Shown here one piece after another: positions 17,410-24,466 of a stretch of 64,000 nucleotides of DNA. Every line of letters begins with the position of its first letter. Position 1 is the stretch's first letter. A program made the translations under genes and the position numbers. The notes under the pieces were generated by a model. That model saw nothing but the letters and a program-made list of their open reading frames with translations, searched no databases and had not been told where the DNA came from. This stretch comes from Salinisphaera sp. Q1T1-3 (lineage in GTDB: Bacteria > Pseudomonadota > Gammaproteobacteria > Nevskiales > Salinisphaeraceae): assembly GCF_003602005.1 (NCBI RefSeq), contig NZ_QZWD01000007.1:62001-126000 (forward strand), written 5' to 3'.

Positions 17410-17949
17410 TCAGGCAGGCAGCCAGATATCGCGCAGACCGCCGTCGCGGCCGGTGACGGGGTCGGTCTGCGGACAGGGCACGCCGGCGATCCGCAGACGG
17501 GCTTTTTCGATGTCGGCGTGGCCGCTACGGCAAAGATCCCAGTCCGGCTGGCCCACCGGATAACCGCCGACGAGCAGGAAATCCTGACTGGCTTCGATGC
17601 GGCAATGGCCGGTACCTGCAGGCAGAATGACGACATCGCCGGCCCGAATCGTGATCTGTTGGCCCGCTTCACCGCCAAGCTGCAGTCGCGCGCTGCCGGT
17701 GGCAACGGCCAACACCTCGTGCGCGGTCGAGTGATAGTGGTGATAGTCGAATACGCCACCGCGCCATTGCGGCGGCCAGTCGTGATGGGCCAACAGCCGC
17801 TCAAGCGCGGCGGCCGGGGCGCTTTCACTCGCGGCCAAAACGGCGTGGTGCATGACGACGGGCCAGGCGTTATTCGGTGTACGTCCGTCATCGTCGAAGG
17901 TGAGCGTGTCGAACGCCATTGCGGGCATGGGTGTTGATACACGGGCCAT
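17410..17949 (-). CDS. Cupin-domain protein (YjlB-like)
   Basis: A 179-residue single-domain cupin. The metal-site region reads FDYHHYHSTAHEVLAVATGSA, with the GDVVILPAGTGHCR second motif about 30 residues later; together they supply the His/Glu ligands. It resembles the uncharacterised YjlB family. The enzymatic reaction is not known. It lies 45 bp downstream of sqdB on the same strand and may ride on the same Pho-controlled transcript, though nothing in its sequence ties it to lipids. ATG at 17949 was preferred over a TTG two codons earlier. Confidence 0.75.
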   Translation of the reverse strand: MARVSTPMPAMAFDTLTFDDDGRTPNNAWPVVMHHAVLAASESAPAAALERLLAHHDWPPQWRGGVFDYHHYHSTAHEVLAVATGSARLQLGGEAGQQITIRAGDVVILPAGTGHCRIEASQDFLLVGGYPVGQPDWDLCRSGHADIEKARLRIAGVPCPQTDPVTGRDGGLRDIWLPA

Positions 17950-17994
17950 GCTCAACTCTGTGCCAGTCCGAAGCCATTGTCGAGACGGTGCAAG

Positions 17995-19278
17995 TCAAAT
18001 GGGCTGGATGAGGGGATCTGTCGTGGCGGTGTTCCGGGCGGTGCTCATCGTCACCTCGGCGTGCCCGGTACGGCGCCACTGCGATCGACAGGCGATGCGA
18101 CGCTTGTCACAACGATGGGCATAACGGGCCGCGATTTCGGTGACTTCGGTGAACAGGCCGGTTGCCAGCGTCGTGGGTTTCAGACCGAGGGCGATCAGGG
18201 CGTCGTTGGCGACATGCAGATCGTTCTCGGCGGCTTCGACCCGTGGATTCTGCACATGGTCGATGGCGGCTCCGGTCTGGGCCGCGATCCGCGTGGCCAG
18301 GTCGCGGATACGATGGGTCTCGGTCATCTGGTTGTAGATACGTACGCGCTCGCCGGTCGCCGGTGGGTTGCCGATGGCCAGGGCCACGCAGCGCACGGTG
18401 TCCTGGATATGGATGAAGGCGCGGGTCTGGCCGCCGGTGCCGTGCACGGTCAGCGGATGGCCGATCGCGGCCTGCATGAGAAACCGGTTGAGTACGGTGC
18501 CGTAATCGCCGTCGTAATCGAAGCGATTGATCAGGCGTTCGTCGAGACGGGTTTCCTCGGTCTGGGTGCCCCAGACGATGCCCTGGTGCAGATCGGTGAT
18601 GCGGATGCCGTCGTTCTTGTTGTAGAAGGCGAAGGCCAGCTGGTCCTGGGTCTTGGTCAGGTGATAGACACTGCCGGGGTTGACCGGATAGAGGATCTCG
18701 TCGCGGGCCATGTCGCCGTCGTCGGTCTCTACGTGGACAGTGAGATAGCCCTCCGGAATCTTCATGCCGGCACTGCCGTAGCCGTAAACGCCCATGGTGC
18801 CCAGATGCACGATATGGGCATCGACCCCGGATTCGACGAGCGCGGCGAGCAGCGTGTTGGTGGCCCCGAGGTTGTTGTCCATGGTGTAGCGCTTGTGCCA
18901 GGCGGATTTCATGGAATAGGGGGCGGCCCGTTGTTCGGCGAAATGCACGATCGCTTCCGGGCGCCAGTCCACCAGCAGATCGAGCAGACGCTGATAGTTC
19001 CGGGCCACATCGAAGCGATGAAAGACGATACGACGCCCGGAAACCGCTTCCCACGCGGCCAGTCGCTCACTCATCGGGCGGATGGGCGTGAGGGAGTCCA
19101 CTTCCAGTTCGACGTCGATCTTGCGTCGCGAGAGATTGTCGACAATCGCCACTTCGTAACCGGCGGCGGACAGATGCAGGGCGGTCGGCCAGCCGCAGAA
19201 ACCGTCACCGCCGAGGATGAGCACGCGCTCGGCGGCCCGTCGTCCGGCGGGTCGCCGGGCAGGTGTCGTGTGGTGCAT
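17995..19278 (-). CDS. sqdB: UDP-sulfoquinovose synthase
   Basis: A 427-residue extended SDR. It starts MHHTTPARRP, then VLILGGDGFCGWPTALHLSA (nucleotide site with the SQD1-specific GDGFCGWP), VEVDSL-like substrate segments, HFAEQRAAPYSM (a strong SQD1 signature) and the catalytic SVYHLTK (YxxxK). The enzyme converts UDP-glucose and sulfite to UDP-sulfoquinovose, the head-group donor for the sulfolipid SQDG. The ATG at 19278 follows a strong GGGAG; earlier in-frame starts lack one. It faces the gtrA-plcP-agt operon across a spacer with two Pho boxes. The last 35 residues look poorly conserved. Confidence 0.93.
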   Translation of the reverse strand: MHHTTPARRPAGRRAAERVLILGGDGFCGWPTALHLSAAGYEVAIVDNLSRRKIDVELEVDSLTPIRPMSERLAAWEAVSGRRIVFHRFDVARNYQRLLDLLVDWRPEAIVHFAEQRAAPYSMKSAWHKRYTMDNNLGATNTLLAALVESGVDAHIVHLGTMGVYGYGSAGMKIPEGYLTVHVETDDGDMARDEILYPVNPGSVYHLTKTQDQLAFAFYNKNDGIRITDLHQGIVWGTQTEETRLDERLINRFDYDGDYGTVLNRFLMQAAIGHPLTVHGTGGQTRAFIHIQDTVRCVALAIGNPPATGERVRIYNQMTETHRIRDLATRIAAQTGAAIDHVQNPRVEAAENDLHVANDALIALGLKPTTLATGLFTEVTEIAARYAHRCDKRRIACRSQWRRTGHAEVTMSTARNTATTDPLIQPI

Positions 19279-19328
19279 GGTCGACTCCCATGGTTGGTCG
19301 GACATGCCATTCAGCGTGGGCACGCCAT

Positions 19329-19346
19329 GTGACCGGGGCGTGACGC
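19329..19346 (-). promoter_or_regulatory. Pho box (PhoB site) facing sqdB
   Basis: Read on the minus strand it is GCGTCAC, four bases, then CGGTCAC. This matches the CTGTCAY-N4-CTGTCAY PhoB consensus at 5/7 and 6/7 positions. It ends 50 bp before the sqdB start codon. The -10 that would sit ten bases further on is poor, so sqdB may depend heavily on activator. It is in exact 11-bp phase with the neighbouring plus-strand box. Confidence 0.55.
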
Positions 19347-19350
19347 GCCC

Positions 19351-19368
19351 GTGTCATATCCGTGTCAG
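19351..19368 (+). promoter_or_regulatory. Pho box and promoter facing gtrA-plcP-agt
   Basis: GTGTCAT, four bases, then GTGTCAG matches the PhoB consensus at 6/7 and 5/7 positions with the canonical 11-bp repeat. Exactly ten bases downstream is TAGATC (19379-19384) preceded by TG, a good extended -10 at the spacing known for PhoB-activated promoters. Transcription would then begin near 19391, a few bases before the gtrA ATG, predicting an almost leaderless message. Confidence 0.72.
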
Positions 19369-19393
19369 CACGACCTGCTAGATCTGGCACGTC

Positions 19394-19840
19394 ATGGCAT
19401 GCGATCTCTCTTGGTGTGCGCGCCTTGCGCGACGTATTCATCGGCCGGCGCTGTTCGCGGCCGTAGGGGGCGTGGCGTTCGGGGTGGATATGACGGTGCT
19501 CGGTGGCCTGGTGCACGGGCTCGGTCTGGCGCCCGCGATCGCGCGCGGGCTGTCGATTCTCGCGGCGCTCAGCGTGGCCTGGTACATCAATCGGCGGGTG
19601 ACGTTCGCGGCGGCCGGTGGTGGCGGGCATCTCGGCGAGTGGCTGTCCTATCTGGCGGTCAACGCGCTGGGAATGGGCCTGAACTACGGCATTTATGTGG
19701 CAATCGTCTCGCTTACCCGTCTCGGGGCAGCCCATCCGCTGCTCAGTGTCGTGCCGGGCGGGGTGCTCGCGCTCGGGGTGAACTACGGTCTGGCCTCACG
19801 CCTGATATTCCGGACCGGCGAGGTGTCATCGCACCGTTAA
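19394..19840 (+). CDS. GtrA family membrane protein
   Basis: A 148-residue protein with four predicted transmembrane helices in the GtrA arrangement: ALFAAVGGVAFGVDMTVLGG, then SILAALSVAWYINRRVTFAA with the conserved N-R-x-x-T-F, followed by two more helices. GtrA-family proteins are proposed flippases for lipid-linked sugars. Here the gene is first in an operon with a lipid phosphodiesterase and a glycosyltransferase, so a role in moving glycolipids across the membrane is an attractive inference. No clear Shine-Dalgarno precedes the ATG, consistent with the short leader predicted from the promoter. Confidence 0.82.
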   Translation: MACDLSWCARLARRIHRPALFAAVGGVAFGVDMTVLGGLVHGLGLAPAIARGLSILAALSVAWYINRRVTFAAAGGGGHLGEWLSYLAVNALGMGLNYGIYVAIVSLTRLGAAHPLLSVVPGGVLALGVNYGLASRLIFRTGEVSSHR

Positions 19841-19908
19841 CCAATCGTCTTATTGTCGTCATGTGCCGCCGGGACACTACAGATCGTCAGCTTGCGTGGA
19901 GGCTCGCC

Positions 19909-20799
19909 ATGATCTTCGACGACGATGTGCTCGATCGCCCCGCCGGCTCGCCCGGCAACGCCGACCCGCCGTTGGCGCGTCCATCGGTGCCACCGCCGGG
20001 CGCGAACCGGCGCGGTCTGCACCGCTATCGCGCGATCTGGATCTCGGATTTCCATCTCGGTACGCGCGGTTGCCGGGCCGAGCGACTGCTGGATTTCCTC
20101 TCGCGCGTGCACTGCGACACGTTGTATCTGGTCGGCGACATCATCGATGCCTGGGCGCTCAAGAAGGCCTGGTACTGGCCGACAAGCCACACGGCCGTGA
20201 TCCGCGCGATTCTCGATCTGCATCGCAGCCGTGGTACCCGCGTGGTCTATGTGCCCGGCAATCACGATGAGGTCCTGCGGGATTACCTGCCGATCGATCT
20301 GTCCGGCATCGAAGTCTGCAACGAATGCGTGCACGAGACAGCCGACGGCAAGCGCTATCTGGTGATGCACGGCGACGAGTTCGACCTGGTGTGCACCCAG
20401 GCCCGCTGGCTGGCCGTGCTCGGTGACTATGCCTATCGCGGCGTGATCCGCGCCAACAGCGGCTTCAACACCGTGCGCCGGCGGCTGGGCTATCCGTACT
20501 GGTCGCTGTCGGCGTTTCTGAAATATCAGGTCAAGAACGCGGTGGCCTTCATCGGACGCTTCGAAGAAGCGCTGGCCGATGAAGCACGGCGGCGTGATGT
20601 CGACGGCGTCATCTGCGGGCATATCCACACGCCGTCGCGCCGCACGATCCAGGGCGTGGACTATTGCAACGACGGCGACTGGGTCGAGAGCTGCACGGCA
20701 CTGACCGAGGATTTCACCGGCCGGATCGAACTGTTGTACTGGGGACGCGACGGTATGGCGGCGCCGGCCGAGCCGGTCGCGCAGGCGGTCTCGGCATGA
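19909..20799 (+). CDS. plcP: PlcP-type metallophosphoesterase (phospholipase C acting in lipid remodelling)
   Basis: A 296-residue calcineurin-like phosphoesterase with the full metal motif series: WISDFHLG (D-x-H), GDIIDAW, GNHDE, MHGDEFD and CGHIHTP. The segment FHLGTRGCRAERLLDFL is the form typical of PlcP and of the 'UDP-2,3-diacylglucosamine pyrophosphatase' annotations that PlcP often receives. PlcP cleaves head groups from PE, PG or PC at the membrane, releasing diacylglycerol for glycolipid synthesis under phosphate limitation. The ATG at 19909 follows TGGAGG with a six-base gap. Its stop overlaps the agt start (ATGA). True LpxH is shorter and lacks this operon context. Confidence 0.85.
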   Translation: MIFDDDVLDRPAGSPGNADPPLARPSVPPPGANRRGLHRYRAIWISDFHLGTRGCRAERLLDFLSRVHCDTLYLVGDIIDAWALKKAWYWPTSHTAVIRAILDLHRSRGTRVVYVPGNHDEVLRDYLPIDLSGIEVCNECVHETADGKRYLVMHGDEFDLVCTQARWLAVLGDYAYRGVIRANSGFNTVRRRLGYPYWSLSAFLKYQVKNAVAFIGRFEEALADEARRRDVDGVICGHIHTPSRRTIQGVDYCNDGDWVESCTALTEDFTGRIELLYWGRDGMAAPAEPVAQAVSA

Positions 20800-21878
20800 A
20801 GATCGCCCTCGTCACCGATGCCTGGCACCCCCAGATCAACGGCGTTGTACGCACCTGGTCCGTGGTCCTCGACGAACTGCAACGGGCCGGGCACGAGGTG
20901 GTCACCGTCACGCCGGATCAGTACCGTACGCTGCCCTGTCCGGGGGACTCGACGATCCGGCTGGCGCTGGCCACGCCGGACGGCGTCGGGGACCGGCTGA
21001 TCGAAGCCGCGCCGGATGTCATACACATCGCCACCGAAGGCCCGCTCGGGGTCGCGGCACGCCGTTGGTGCGTGCGTCATGGCCTGGCCTTCACCACGTC
21101 CTACCACACGCATTTTCCGCAGTATCTGCAGATGCGGCTGGGCATGCCGAAGTCGTTGACCTATGCCGCGGTGCGTCGTTTCCATGCGGCTTCGGCCCGC
21201 GTGATGGTCACCACGCCCACGCTGGCCGATGAACTGGCCGGCCACGGCATCCGGCACACTGCGCTCTGGCCGCGCGGCGTGGATGCCCGGACCTTCGCCC
21301 CGCGCGCGGACGCCGTGTCCATCCCGGGGCCGCGACCGGTCATGATCTATGTGGGGCGCGTGGCCGTCGAGAAGAGCATCGAGGAATTTCTGGCTCTCGA
21401 TGTGCCCGGGACCAAGGTCGTGGTCGGCGACGGGCCGGCGCGCCGCGGGCTCGAGGCACGATATCCCGAGGCTGTTTTCGCCGGCTGGCAGAGCGGTGCC
21501 GATCTGGCGCGCTGGTATGCCGGGGCCGATGTCTTTGTCTTCCCGTCACGCACCGACACTTATGGTCTGGTGTTGCTGGAAGCCCTGGCCAGCGGTCTGC
21601 CGGTCGCGGCTTACCCGGTGCCCGGCCCGCAGGATGTGTTGGGCGATGCCCCGCACGTGGCCTGCCTGGATTCGGATCTCGCGCGCGCGGTGGCCGGGGC
21701 CGTCCGTCTGTCGCCGGCCGCGGCCCGCCAGCATGCGCTGGCATTCTCCTGGGCCGCCTGTGCCGCGCGTTTCGCCGATCTGACGGTGGCGTTACCCGCC
21801 GGCACCTGGCGGCGCCTGGCCCGGCGATCGCTCATGACCCGGGCGATTGCGCCGGCCCGACGGTTGCTGGCCGGCTGA
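20796..21878 (+). CDS. GT4 family glycosyltransferase (Agt/SqdX-like diacylglycerol glycosyltransferase)
   Basis: A 360-residue GT-B enzyme. The N-terminus KIALVTDAWHPQINGVVRT is characteristic of the diacylglycerol/phosphatidylinositol glycosyltransferase group that contains Agt, SqdX and PimB. The C-terminal half has YVGRVAVEKSIEEFL and FPSRTDTYGLVLLEALASG (E-x7-E region) for the nucleotide-sugar. It is translationally coupled to plcP. In marine bacteria the plcP-agt pair makes glucosyl- and glucuronosyl-diacylglycerol. Here sqdB is next door and no other transferase is present, so it may also or instead use UDP-sulfoquinovose. The stop directly abuts the convergent neighbour's stop. Confidence 0.85.
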   Translation: MKIALVTDAWHPQINGVVRTWSVVLDELQRAGHEVVTVTPDQYRTLPCPGDSTIRLALATPDGVGDRLIEAAPDVIHIATEGPLGVAARRWCVRHGLAFTTSYHTHFPQYLQMRLGMPKSLTYAAVRRFHAASARVMVTTPTLADELAGHGIRHTALWPRGVDARTFAPRADAVSIPGPRPVMIYVGRVAVEKSIEEFLALDVPGTKVVVGDGPARRGLEARYPEAVFAGWQSGADLARWYAGADVFVFPSRTDTYGLVLLEALASGLPVAAYPVPGPQDVLGDAPHVACLDSDLARAVAGAVRLSPAAARQHALAFSWAACAARFADLTVALPAGTWRRLARRSLMTRAIAPARRLLAG

Positions 21879-23095: not shown

Positions 23096-24466
23096 TCATC
23101 GCTTGATGACGTCGCCGGCGAAGTAGAGCCCCATCTGCAGGTTGTAGCGCGTGTTCCAGTCGCCGTCGTTCGGGCCGTTGAAGGCCATCGCCGAATTCTT
23201 GCCCGAGAGCACGTCGAGCCAGATCTGAAGCGGGCCGAACGACAGATTCATGCCGGCCGCGTTGAACTGGATATCGCCGGCCATGTTGGACGGGCTGCCC
23301 GGTGTCGCACTTTCGAAACGCCCGTCGCCGCCGGTCATCAGATAGGCATAGTTGTCGTAGAGCTGGATCGACTCCAGCGCGCCCCAGCCGATGTCGAAGG
23401 TACGGGCGATGTTGCCCGAGAAGATCTGCCCGGAGGCCGGCATCTGGTAGCCGAAACCGTAGTTCTCGACGGTGATCGAATCGGTGGGCAGATCGAAACC
23501 GTTGTACTGGCGCCCATCCGGGATGTTGTAGCGGTAGTCGACGTACTGGCCCTGGAGTGTCCAGTTGCCGAGCGCGGCATCGACGGCCGCCGTGGCCGCC
23601 CAGCGGGTGCCGTTGTCGTTGGAATCGCCGACCTCAAGCTGGCCACCGCGCACCGCCGCCGAGACCTGCACGCTGCGCTCGCTGCCCTTGTTGAAGGTCC
23701 AGGCCGCGCGCATGTTGCCGCCGTTGATCTGTTGATAACCCTCGAACGGGTTCGACCCGTAGAGGCTGTGTTGCTGGAGATCGTCGTTCTTGAAGGCGTC
23801 GATATCCAGTCGGAACGGCCCGTTTTCGTACTTGTAGCCGATGCCGGCAGCCTGGTTGTCGGTGAAACCGGCGAAGTAGTTGAGGTTGCCCCAGAACGAC
23901 TGATAGCCGAAGCGCAGGTTGCCGAAGGGGACCTGGAACAGGCCGGCCTTGAGTTGATGCTTCGGTGTGAAATCGTAGGCGGCCCAGCCGTAGCGCAGGA
24001 ACGAATCATCGGCAAAGGCCACCTGGGACCAGCGATATTCGCCGGCGTAGGTCAGCTTGCCGTACTGGCCGTCCCAGTTGACTGCCGTAATGCCCATCAC
24101 GCCGTCGCCGCGGTCCTGGCTTTCGTTTTCCAGATCCGGCTTGAGCTTGTAGCCGAGCGTATAGGCGCCGCCGAGCGTCAGGCTTTTCTTGGGTGCCTCG
24201 TCGGCCGGTGCCGGTGACGTCGCGCTGGCCGTATCGCTGGTTTCGGCATCGTCTGTGGCCGGCTCGGCACTGGCCTGGCTGGGCTGCGCCCCCTGATCGG
24301 CCTTGAGCTGATCCAGCGTGGTCTTGAGTTGATCGATCTGTTGTTGCAACGCGGCGCGGGCCGCGCTGTCATTCGTGTCGTTGGCAGCGGCGAATGCCGG
24401 TGCCGTGCAGAAAAGGCTGGTACCGGCCACGATCGTGGCCAGCCGCAATCCGGATGCGTGCGTCAC
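23096..24466 (-). CDS. Outer-membrane porin with N-terminal coiled coil
   Basis: A 456-residue exported protein: signal peptide ending TAPAFAA (about residue 27), a 25-residue coiled-coil stretch (ARAALQQQIDQLKTTLDQLK), an acidic Ala/Thr/Pro linker, then an antiparallel beta-barrel of alternating aromatic and polar strands. The barrel includes KAGLFQVPFGNLRFG, a motif seen in OprP/OprO-like and related porins. The GTG at 24466 is the start, supported by AGGGGG four to six bases upstream. Substrate is not predictable. Only one isolated TGTCA-type half-site lies upstream, so phosphate control was not claimed. Confidence 0.82.
   Translation of the reverse strand: MTHASGLRLATIVAGTSLFCTAPAFAAANDTNDSAARAALQQQIDQLKTTLDQLKADQGAQPSQASAEPATDDAETSDTASATSPAPADEAPKKSLTLGGAYTLGYKLKPDLENESQDRGDGVMGITAVNWDGQYGKLTYAGEYRWSQVAFADDSFLRYGWAAYDFTPKHQLKAGLFQVPFGNLRFGYQSFWGNLNYFAGFTDNQAAGIGYKYENGPFRLDIDAFKNDDLQQHSLYGSNPFEGYQQINGGNMRAAWTFNKGSERSVQVSAAVRGGQLEVGDSNDNGTRWAATAAVDAALGNWTLQGQYVDYRYNIPDGRQYNGFDLPTDSITVENYGFGYQMPASGQIFSGNIARTFDIGWGALESIQLYDNYAYLMTGGDGRFESATPGSPSNMAGDIQFNAAGMNLSFGPLQIWLDVLSGKNSAMAFNGPNDGDWNTRYNLQMGLYFAGDVIKR

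Follow-up and report, generated by a model that had tools for sequence, protein, structure and literature searches.

The gene pair plcP-agt is known from Pseudomonas aeruginosa (PA3219-PA3218), SAR11, Methylosinus and Agrobacterium and, in the accessible text of the papers concerned, has a Pho box upstream (PMC8528852, PMC4796936, PMC9239053). As to glycosyltransferases (GTs) of the Agt type, the accessible parts of the literature report that P. aeruginosa Agt1 is UDP-glucose-specific, that Agt2 takes UDP-glucuronate and, to a degree, UDP-glucose (PMC8528852), and that Agrobacterium Agt (PMC3972451) and, likewise, SAR11 Agt (PMC8231724) use both donors. Six plcP contexts with Pho boxes were presented by Sebastian et al. 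(PMC4796936), and in the accessible text none of these contexts names sqdB. It is also stated there that sulfoquinovosyldiacylglycerol (SQDG), like other phosphorus-free glycerolipids, requires diacylglycerol, that sqdB occurs in environmental heterotrophs and that PlcP-derived diacylglycerol can feed SQDG, an idea that is thus already published (PMC4796936). Here, we analyzed a locus of Salinisphaera sp. Q1T1-3 that holds the same two families in the same order and with an upstream Pho box but, unlike the pairs described in the accessible texts, adds sqdB, divergent over a spacer with PhoB-type boxes, and gtrA in front. The locus lies in a stretch of 64,000 nucleotides, the whole of the DNA that was analyzed and hereafter the window (contig NZ_QZWD01000007.1, positions 62,001 to 126,000), of a genome of 3.87 Mb in 59 contigs. 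It is, on balance, probably a PhoB-switched membrane-remodelling unit, in which phospholipid-derived diacylglycerol would be glycosylated with SqdB-made sulfoquinovose and/or with glucose or glucuronate.

Known sulfolipid loci offer further comparison. The alphaproteobacterial sqdB-sqdD-sqdC operon (S. meliloti, Loktanella, Palleronia) encodes an SqdB that is 64-66% identical to that of the window (S. meliloti, Loktanella), whereas the window genome gave no SqdD match and its candidate transferase is a GT4 enzyme of the Agt clade. In S. meliloti, plcP and sqdB belong to one Pho regulon and SqdD is the transferase, according to the accessible text of PMC10315480; the window resembles this in the pairing of SqdB and PlcP as Pho-regulon enzymes, a likeness that is read from its boxes only, but differs in its transferase, and no PlcP match was found in the 13-kb stretch around the S. 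meliloti sqdB. The sqdB-sqdX loci found in cyanobacteria and in some Bacillota (such as B. coahuilensis, with sqd1 and sqdX according to the accessible text of PMC4744853) similarly combine SqdB with a GT4, and the window GT shares 32-36% identity with a cyanobacterial GT of the SqdX type; the SqdX-type GTs, however, form a separate clade, and no plcP was found at five such loci among the best 80 of 578 relatives.

The original prediction from this DNA knew of no described locus that combines the four genes in this way, and this agrees with the literature searched: no description of sqdB with gtrA-plcP-agt was found there, in the accessible texts and with subscription papers mostly outside the search, and nothing was found on Salinisphaera with SQDG. 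What is new here is, above all, that SqdB recurs with Agt, in part also with PlcP, together with what is apparently, judging from sequence, a separate assembly of such unions, mostly under PhoB-type boxes. If the proposed reading is true, phospholipid removal and sulfolipid synthesis would stand within a single regulatory unit, the locus would be a sign that sulfolipid is produced by heterotrophic Gammaproteobacteria for which neither SqdD nor a separate SqdX was found, and sulfoquinovosyltransferases would gain, in the window GT, a candidate third kind that can be tested.

Gene identities

As predicted, sqdB on the reverse strand (17995..19278, 427 amino acids) lies opposite gtrA (19394..19840), plcP (19909..20799, 296 amino acids) and agt (20796..21878, 360 amino acids) on the forward strand; all four genes are present and their families are backed by Pfam (PF04138 for the GtrA-family membrane protein, GT4 for agt), with sqdB also named by NCBIfam. 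The start of sqdB was set at the ATG at 19278, the longer listed open reading frame opening with GTG at 19323, and the agt start ATG at 20796 overlaps the plcP stop codon (ATGA).

The window SqdB matches the NCBIfam model for UDP-sulfoquinovose synthase (NF041015) with 337 bits (E 1e-100) and the SQD1 crystal structures with E 8e-100, the next family reaching 1.5e-11, and it is 63.7% identical to S. meliloti SqdB and 65.8% to the SqdB of the Loktanella sqdB-sqdD-sqdC operon. Its homology to SQD1/SqdB is thus full-length and far above that to other epimerases. Thr161, Tyr205 and Lys209 are invariant in an alignment of eight sequences and correspond to the Thr, Tyr and Lys of SQD1, which we take to be the catalytic residues of that enzyme. 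The protein would, therefore, be expected to make UDP-sulfoquinovose. It should be noted that the curated NF041015 cut-off (575 bits) was dropped as a test of SqdB identity, as not only the window protein but also the S. meliloti control (332 bits) fails it. Loktanella SqdB (328 bits) and the cyanobacterial SqdB beside an SqdX-type GT (341 bits) fall under it as well, so that the cut-off seems fitted to another subgroup and genes such as those of S. meliloti and Loktanella are likely annotated as generic epimerases.

The window PlcP, an intracellular phospholipase C-type metallophosphoesterase, is 56.6% identical to P. aeruginosa PlcP and is predicted to cleave phospholipid head groups, leaving diacylglycerol. 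The window GT is 46.8% identical to P. aeruginosa Agt1 and 32.6% identical to the P. aeruginosa GT taken as Agt2. The first reference is a plcP-GT pair on a plasmid, taken as PA3219-PA3218 from its annotation and neighbours, while the Agt2 reference is a GT adjoining a phospholipase C gene and plcR, an assignment that is assumed. In the tree, the window GT, a diacylglycerol glycosyltransferase by family, falls inside a 72-row Agt clade (100/99) that also holds Agt1, in keeping with the overlap of its gene with plcP.

PhoB-type boxes

The predicted 115-bp divergent spacer with two PhoB-type boxes was borne out (19279..19393), with one box in each direction. We scanned for the pattern TGTCAY-N5-TGTCAY, a pair being scored over 12 positions and a triple over 18. 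The box TGTCATATCCGTGTCAG (19352..19368, forward strand), which matches 11/12 consensus positions, faces gtrA-plcP-agt, and a weaker box (19329..19345, reverse strand; 10/12) faces sqdB, both sitting inside an array of half-sites with an 11-bp period. When the spacer was shuffled 500 times, a pair of 11/12 was reached in only four cases (p 0.008) and a triple of 15/18 in none. Genome-wide, 34 sites with at most one mismatch were found, as compared with 9 for a reversed control pattern, and of three sites without a mismatch, one precedes phoB (TIGR02154, over cut-off) and another pstS (likewise over cut-off).

The seven related divergent spacers gave best pairs with p 0.002 to 0.034 and best triples with p below 0.05, such that both the best pair and the best triple stand out from shuffles (p<0.05) in all eight, and boxes of at least 10/12 are present in both directions in 8/8. 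As the ends of the related spacers are the limits of tblastn matches, some of these may extend into the first part of the gtrA coding region. At 12 operonic or related loci elsewhere, six of which are close relatives, the 250 bp upstream gave a best triple with p below 0.05 in 10 and a best pair in five, neither being significant against shuffles at L279 and L174. A conserved PhoB box in the promoter is one mark of a Pho regulon member, and its presence in 8/8 spacers supports the claim that one unit under PhoB-type boxes joins SqdB with PlcP-Agt.

Recurrence of the partnership

A neighbourhood search in related genomes, which had been proposed together with the original prediction, showed the same partnership at other places, with its genes differently ordered. 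The divergent layout of sqdB against plcP-agt was found in 8/8 loci examined of the window clade, and a gtrA-like gene in five of the seven others, none being found at L026 and L029; GtrA possibly moves a lipid-linked sugar. Within the order, 85 genomes were covered, of which 81 hold PlcP, 15 an Agt-type GT and 17 SqdB, with 14 of the 15 GT genomes also holding SqdB, although 13 of these 14 belong to one genus. The class- and phylum-level searches scored five or six candidates per genome. Of 321 genomes of the class, 14 hold an SqdB with at least 59% identity and 53 an Agt, and both are held by eight, as compared with 2.3 expected (p 0.0005). When Salinisphaera is set aside, Agt is found in 5 of 11 SqdB genomes, with 1.7 expected (p 0.017).

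In seven of the eight genomes holding both, sqdB and agt are adjacent or divergent: two (G000, G073) present the divergent layout, three present agt-sqdB (G080, another Salinisphaera; G097; G204) and two present agt-sqdB-plcP operons (G221, G333), while in the remaining one (G361) the two genes lie 11 kb apart. Pairs of agt and sqdB or agt-sqdB-plcP operons also occur in three other gammaproteobacterial families, and an operon of this type is also present in Candidatus Azophilus. These operons, including those of other Salinisphaera, have the same partners as the window and mostly PhoB-type arrays (not L279 and L174), but are co-directional, belong to other SqdB and Agt lineages and have Leu in place of Tyr in the donor loop. 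Complete agt-sqdB-plcP runs were seen at L278 (4168-7191) and L290 (4096-7212), from two gammaproteobacteria of one family. In six Salinisphaera genomes, agt and sqdB are together and plcP is elsewhere in the genome.

Our scan of SqdB loci in GTDB kept the best 80 of 578 relatives, several of the loci ending at contig ends. Among these 80, an Agt-type GT lies near SqdB in three (L129, L144, L174), and an SqdX-type GT4 follows SqdB in five (a cyanobacterium, a member of the Bacillota and three Deinococcota). On this sampling, the union of SqdB and Agt is a gammaproteobacterial speciality and not a general one.

Trees and separate assembly

In a tree of 78 GTs, the sqdB-linked Agts stand in three places: the window clade (8 rows, 100/100), a second clade of 13 rows (90/90), 11 of which are sqdB-linked, and L174. 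The window clade is separated from the 13-row clade by a branch starred in the tree (97/90). The sqdB-linked label requires five changes, at least four of which are forced by starred branches, the mean for shuffled labels being 21.5. The five SqdX-type GTs form a clade of their own (99/99), apart from the Agt clade, and the window GT lies outside it.

The SqdB tree was made by a quick method, without bootstrap and with long branches flagged. In it, the window clade is one group (97) within a starred 28-row set, which stands apart from the groups linked to sqdD or sqdX and from the main operonic group and which also includes L144, an Agt-linked locus of the second GT clade. As a sample of neighbours of SqdBs, 20 proteins were scanned, and seven loci of the 28-row set were among those covered. 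Wzx, Wza/Wzc or an initiating sugar transferase was found nearby in three of these (L037, L038, L142) and a GT2 in L131; L028 has a methyltransferase next to a GHL15 protein among its neighbours, L130 has nothing telling, and L136, of the sister pair of the window clade, had no Pfam match in the three neighbours scanned. Elsewhere in the tree, genes for phosphoadenylyl-sulfate (PAPS) reductase, sulfotransferase or GDP-mannose dehydratase lie near SqdBs.

Taken together, the trees suggest that the union in its window form and the agt-sqdB operons were assembled separately. With moderate confidence, we propose that the former arose by capture of a polysaccharide-type sqdB, an origin that is argued from the quick SqdB tree and the neighbour sample. 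As some relatives of the window SqdB sit in polysaccharide clusters, sqdB by itself is no marker of sulfolipid.

Two further observations concern SqdB outside lipid loci. L037 and L038 are second SqdB copies of two Salinisphaera genomes (G072 and G081, respectively) and lie in clusters of capsule/exopolysaccharide type (Wza/Wzc/Wzx), such that polysaccharides of these bacteria may contain sulfoquinovose as well. On two Rhodobacterales plasmids (L086, 7998-9904; L087, 5998-9761), sqdB is close to a gene for phosphoadenylyl-sulfate reductase and near glycosyltransferases, L087 having a sulfotransferase as well, and the region looks like a sulfur-sugar polysaccharide island.

Candidate sulfoquinovosyltransferase

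To consider which enzyme could transfer sulfoquinovose, an SqdB-linked cyanobacterial GT4 (P0001) was taken as SqdX. Its best match was the GT of this locus in 9/9 genomes of the family (E 3e-42 to 2e-48), the next-best match being 9e-18 or weaker, a gap of at least 24 orders of magnitude. The window GT is, moreover, the only strong Agt/SqdX-type enzyme of its genome. S. meliloti SqdD gave no match (E up to 0.01) in any of 13 gammaproteobacterial genomes, while both positive controls were recovered (2/2). Given the best match in 9/9 genomes and the lack of an SqdD match, the window GT is the prime candidate if SQDG is made.

Similarity to P0001 was also tried as a means of separating the two kinds of Agt and was rejected, as sqdB-linked Agts (157-200 bits) and plcP-only Agts (143-196 bits) overlap.

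Proposed function and alternatives

At low phosphate, PhoB would activate both arms of the divergent promoter, as its boxes suggest. PlcP would then remove phospholipid head groups to leave diacylglycerol, and SqdB would convert UDP-glucose and sulfite to UDP-sulfoquinovose, both steps being proposed from homology. The GT4 Agt would glycosylate the diacylglycerol, with sulfoquinovose and/or glucose or glucuronate, and GtrA may assist movement of the lipid product.

Several observations weigh against sulfoquinovose as the sugar transferred and should be considered here. The window GT carries Tyr256 in the donor loop, as does P. aeruginosa Agt1, and in its clade this residue is Tyr in seven of eight members and Phe in one, never Leu. 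By comparison, all 11 sqdB-linked members of the second clade have Leu at this position, as do L174 and all five SqdX-type GTs; Leu is also present in L289, from a genome with sqdB at a distance of 11 kb, and L307, of the same clade and from a genome in which no SqdB was found, has Tyr. None of 50 other Agts (first set) has Leu, and 49 of them have Phe or Tyr; L096, L289 and L307 were left out of the three groups compared. The Leu mark (T-x-T-L-G), which has no established standing as a criterion, is thus absent from the window GT. In addition, similarity to the SqdX type leaves sqdB-linked and plcP-only Agts unseparated, and several SqdBs that group with that of the window sit in polysaccharide clusters. 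Nonetheless, the Leu mark, perfect in one direction in the first set, is not decisive: among 127 further Agts that have no sqdB next to them, five carry Leu, and Leu 256 as an exclusive mark of sulfoquinovose transfer therefore failed. Possibly the window GT is promiscuous and takes UDP-sulfoquinovose as well, or it may not take it at all.

The five Leu-type Agts without adjacent sqdB (L452, L453, L465, L468, L469) are all beside plcP and come from one gammaproteobacterial family (f165), within which donor specificity may vary.

Less likely than the membrane-remodelling reading, though to be taken seriously, is that one switch governs two products, the GT making only glucosyl- or glucuronosyl-diacylglycerol and SqdB feeding an unrelated GT, for example for a low-phosphate surface polysaccharide. 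Tyr256 is consistent with this, being shared with an Agt1 that is UDP-glucose-specific in the accessible text of PMC8528852, as are the SqdBs found elsewhere beside Wza/Wzc/Wzx, initiating sugar transferases, sulfotransferase or PAPS reductase, the second Salinisphaera copies (L037, L038) included. However, no recognizable polysaccharide gene lies beside the window sqdB, the gene is divergent from plcP-agt throughout its clade (8/8), and other gammaproteobacteria have agt and sqdB in one operon. The predicted coupling of phospholipid removal to sulfolipid formation stands as far as a PhoB-boxed unit of SqdB and PlcP-Agt is concerned, while its sulfolipid product is put in doubt by Tyr256 and the polysaccharide-linked relatives of SqdB.

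It is improbable that sqdB is a chance or merely transcriptional neighbour, functionally uncoupled from a Pho-controlled PlcP-Agt glycolipid unit. Such a view would account for the rarity of the union: plcP was found within the flank (up to 8 kb) in only one (L129, Salinisphaera) of the best 80 of 578 SqdB loci, and sqdB was beside none of the 127 further Agt loci of the phylum (27 with only 1.5 kb of flank; the 127 being 132 places minus the window and four examined earlier). Both counts also speak against the membrane-remodelling reading, as does the association of SqdB with the GT in the order, which is not significant outside the one genus (p 0.11). Yet all eight loci of the clade keep the divergent layout and, directed toward sqdB, a box that matches 10/12 or better, and agt-sqdB unions occur elsewhere. 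That plcP is an LpxH-type lipid A enzyme, in a locus unrelated to phosphate starvation, was rejected and is extremely improbable, since the matches of the window PlcP to LpxH models are weak (34-44 bits), the genome has its own LpxH on contig 11 (226 bits, over cut-off, versus 34 for the window protein), and the identity to P. aeruginosa PlcP and the PhoB boxes point elsewhere.

Returning to the membrane-remodelling reading, its evolutionary extension can be offered only tentatively, at somewhat less than even confidence: on two or more occasions, distinct lineages of SqdB may have taken over Agt-type GTs to serve as sulfolipid synthases, which would give heterotrophic Gammaproteobacteria a third transferase route to SQDG besides SqdD and SqdX, and in the window clade a PhoB-controlled plcP-agt would have captured a polysaccharide-type SqdB.

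Neighbouring genes and other observations

A cupin-domain gene identified by Pfam (17410..17955, reverse strand) lies 39 bp downstream of sqdB and is a possible operon member with it; a cupin-like gene is also present at three of the seven other divergent loci (L022, L024, L025). No tRNA was found in the window, and a profile search of the genome with PF09423 (PhoD) gave no match, which is without bearing on the locus. Three plasmid records nearly match the region, each covering the sqdB part only, and Salinisphaera hydrothermalis C41B8 (L129) is the closest named record for the locus among the best 80 of 578. Further along the window, at 23096-24466 on the reverse strand, lies a protein without a Pfam or NCBIfam match that was judged by eye to be porin-like, and L024 and L025 have a relative in the corresponding position.

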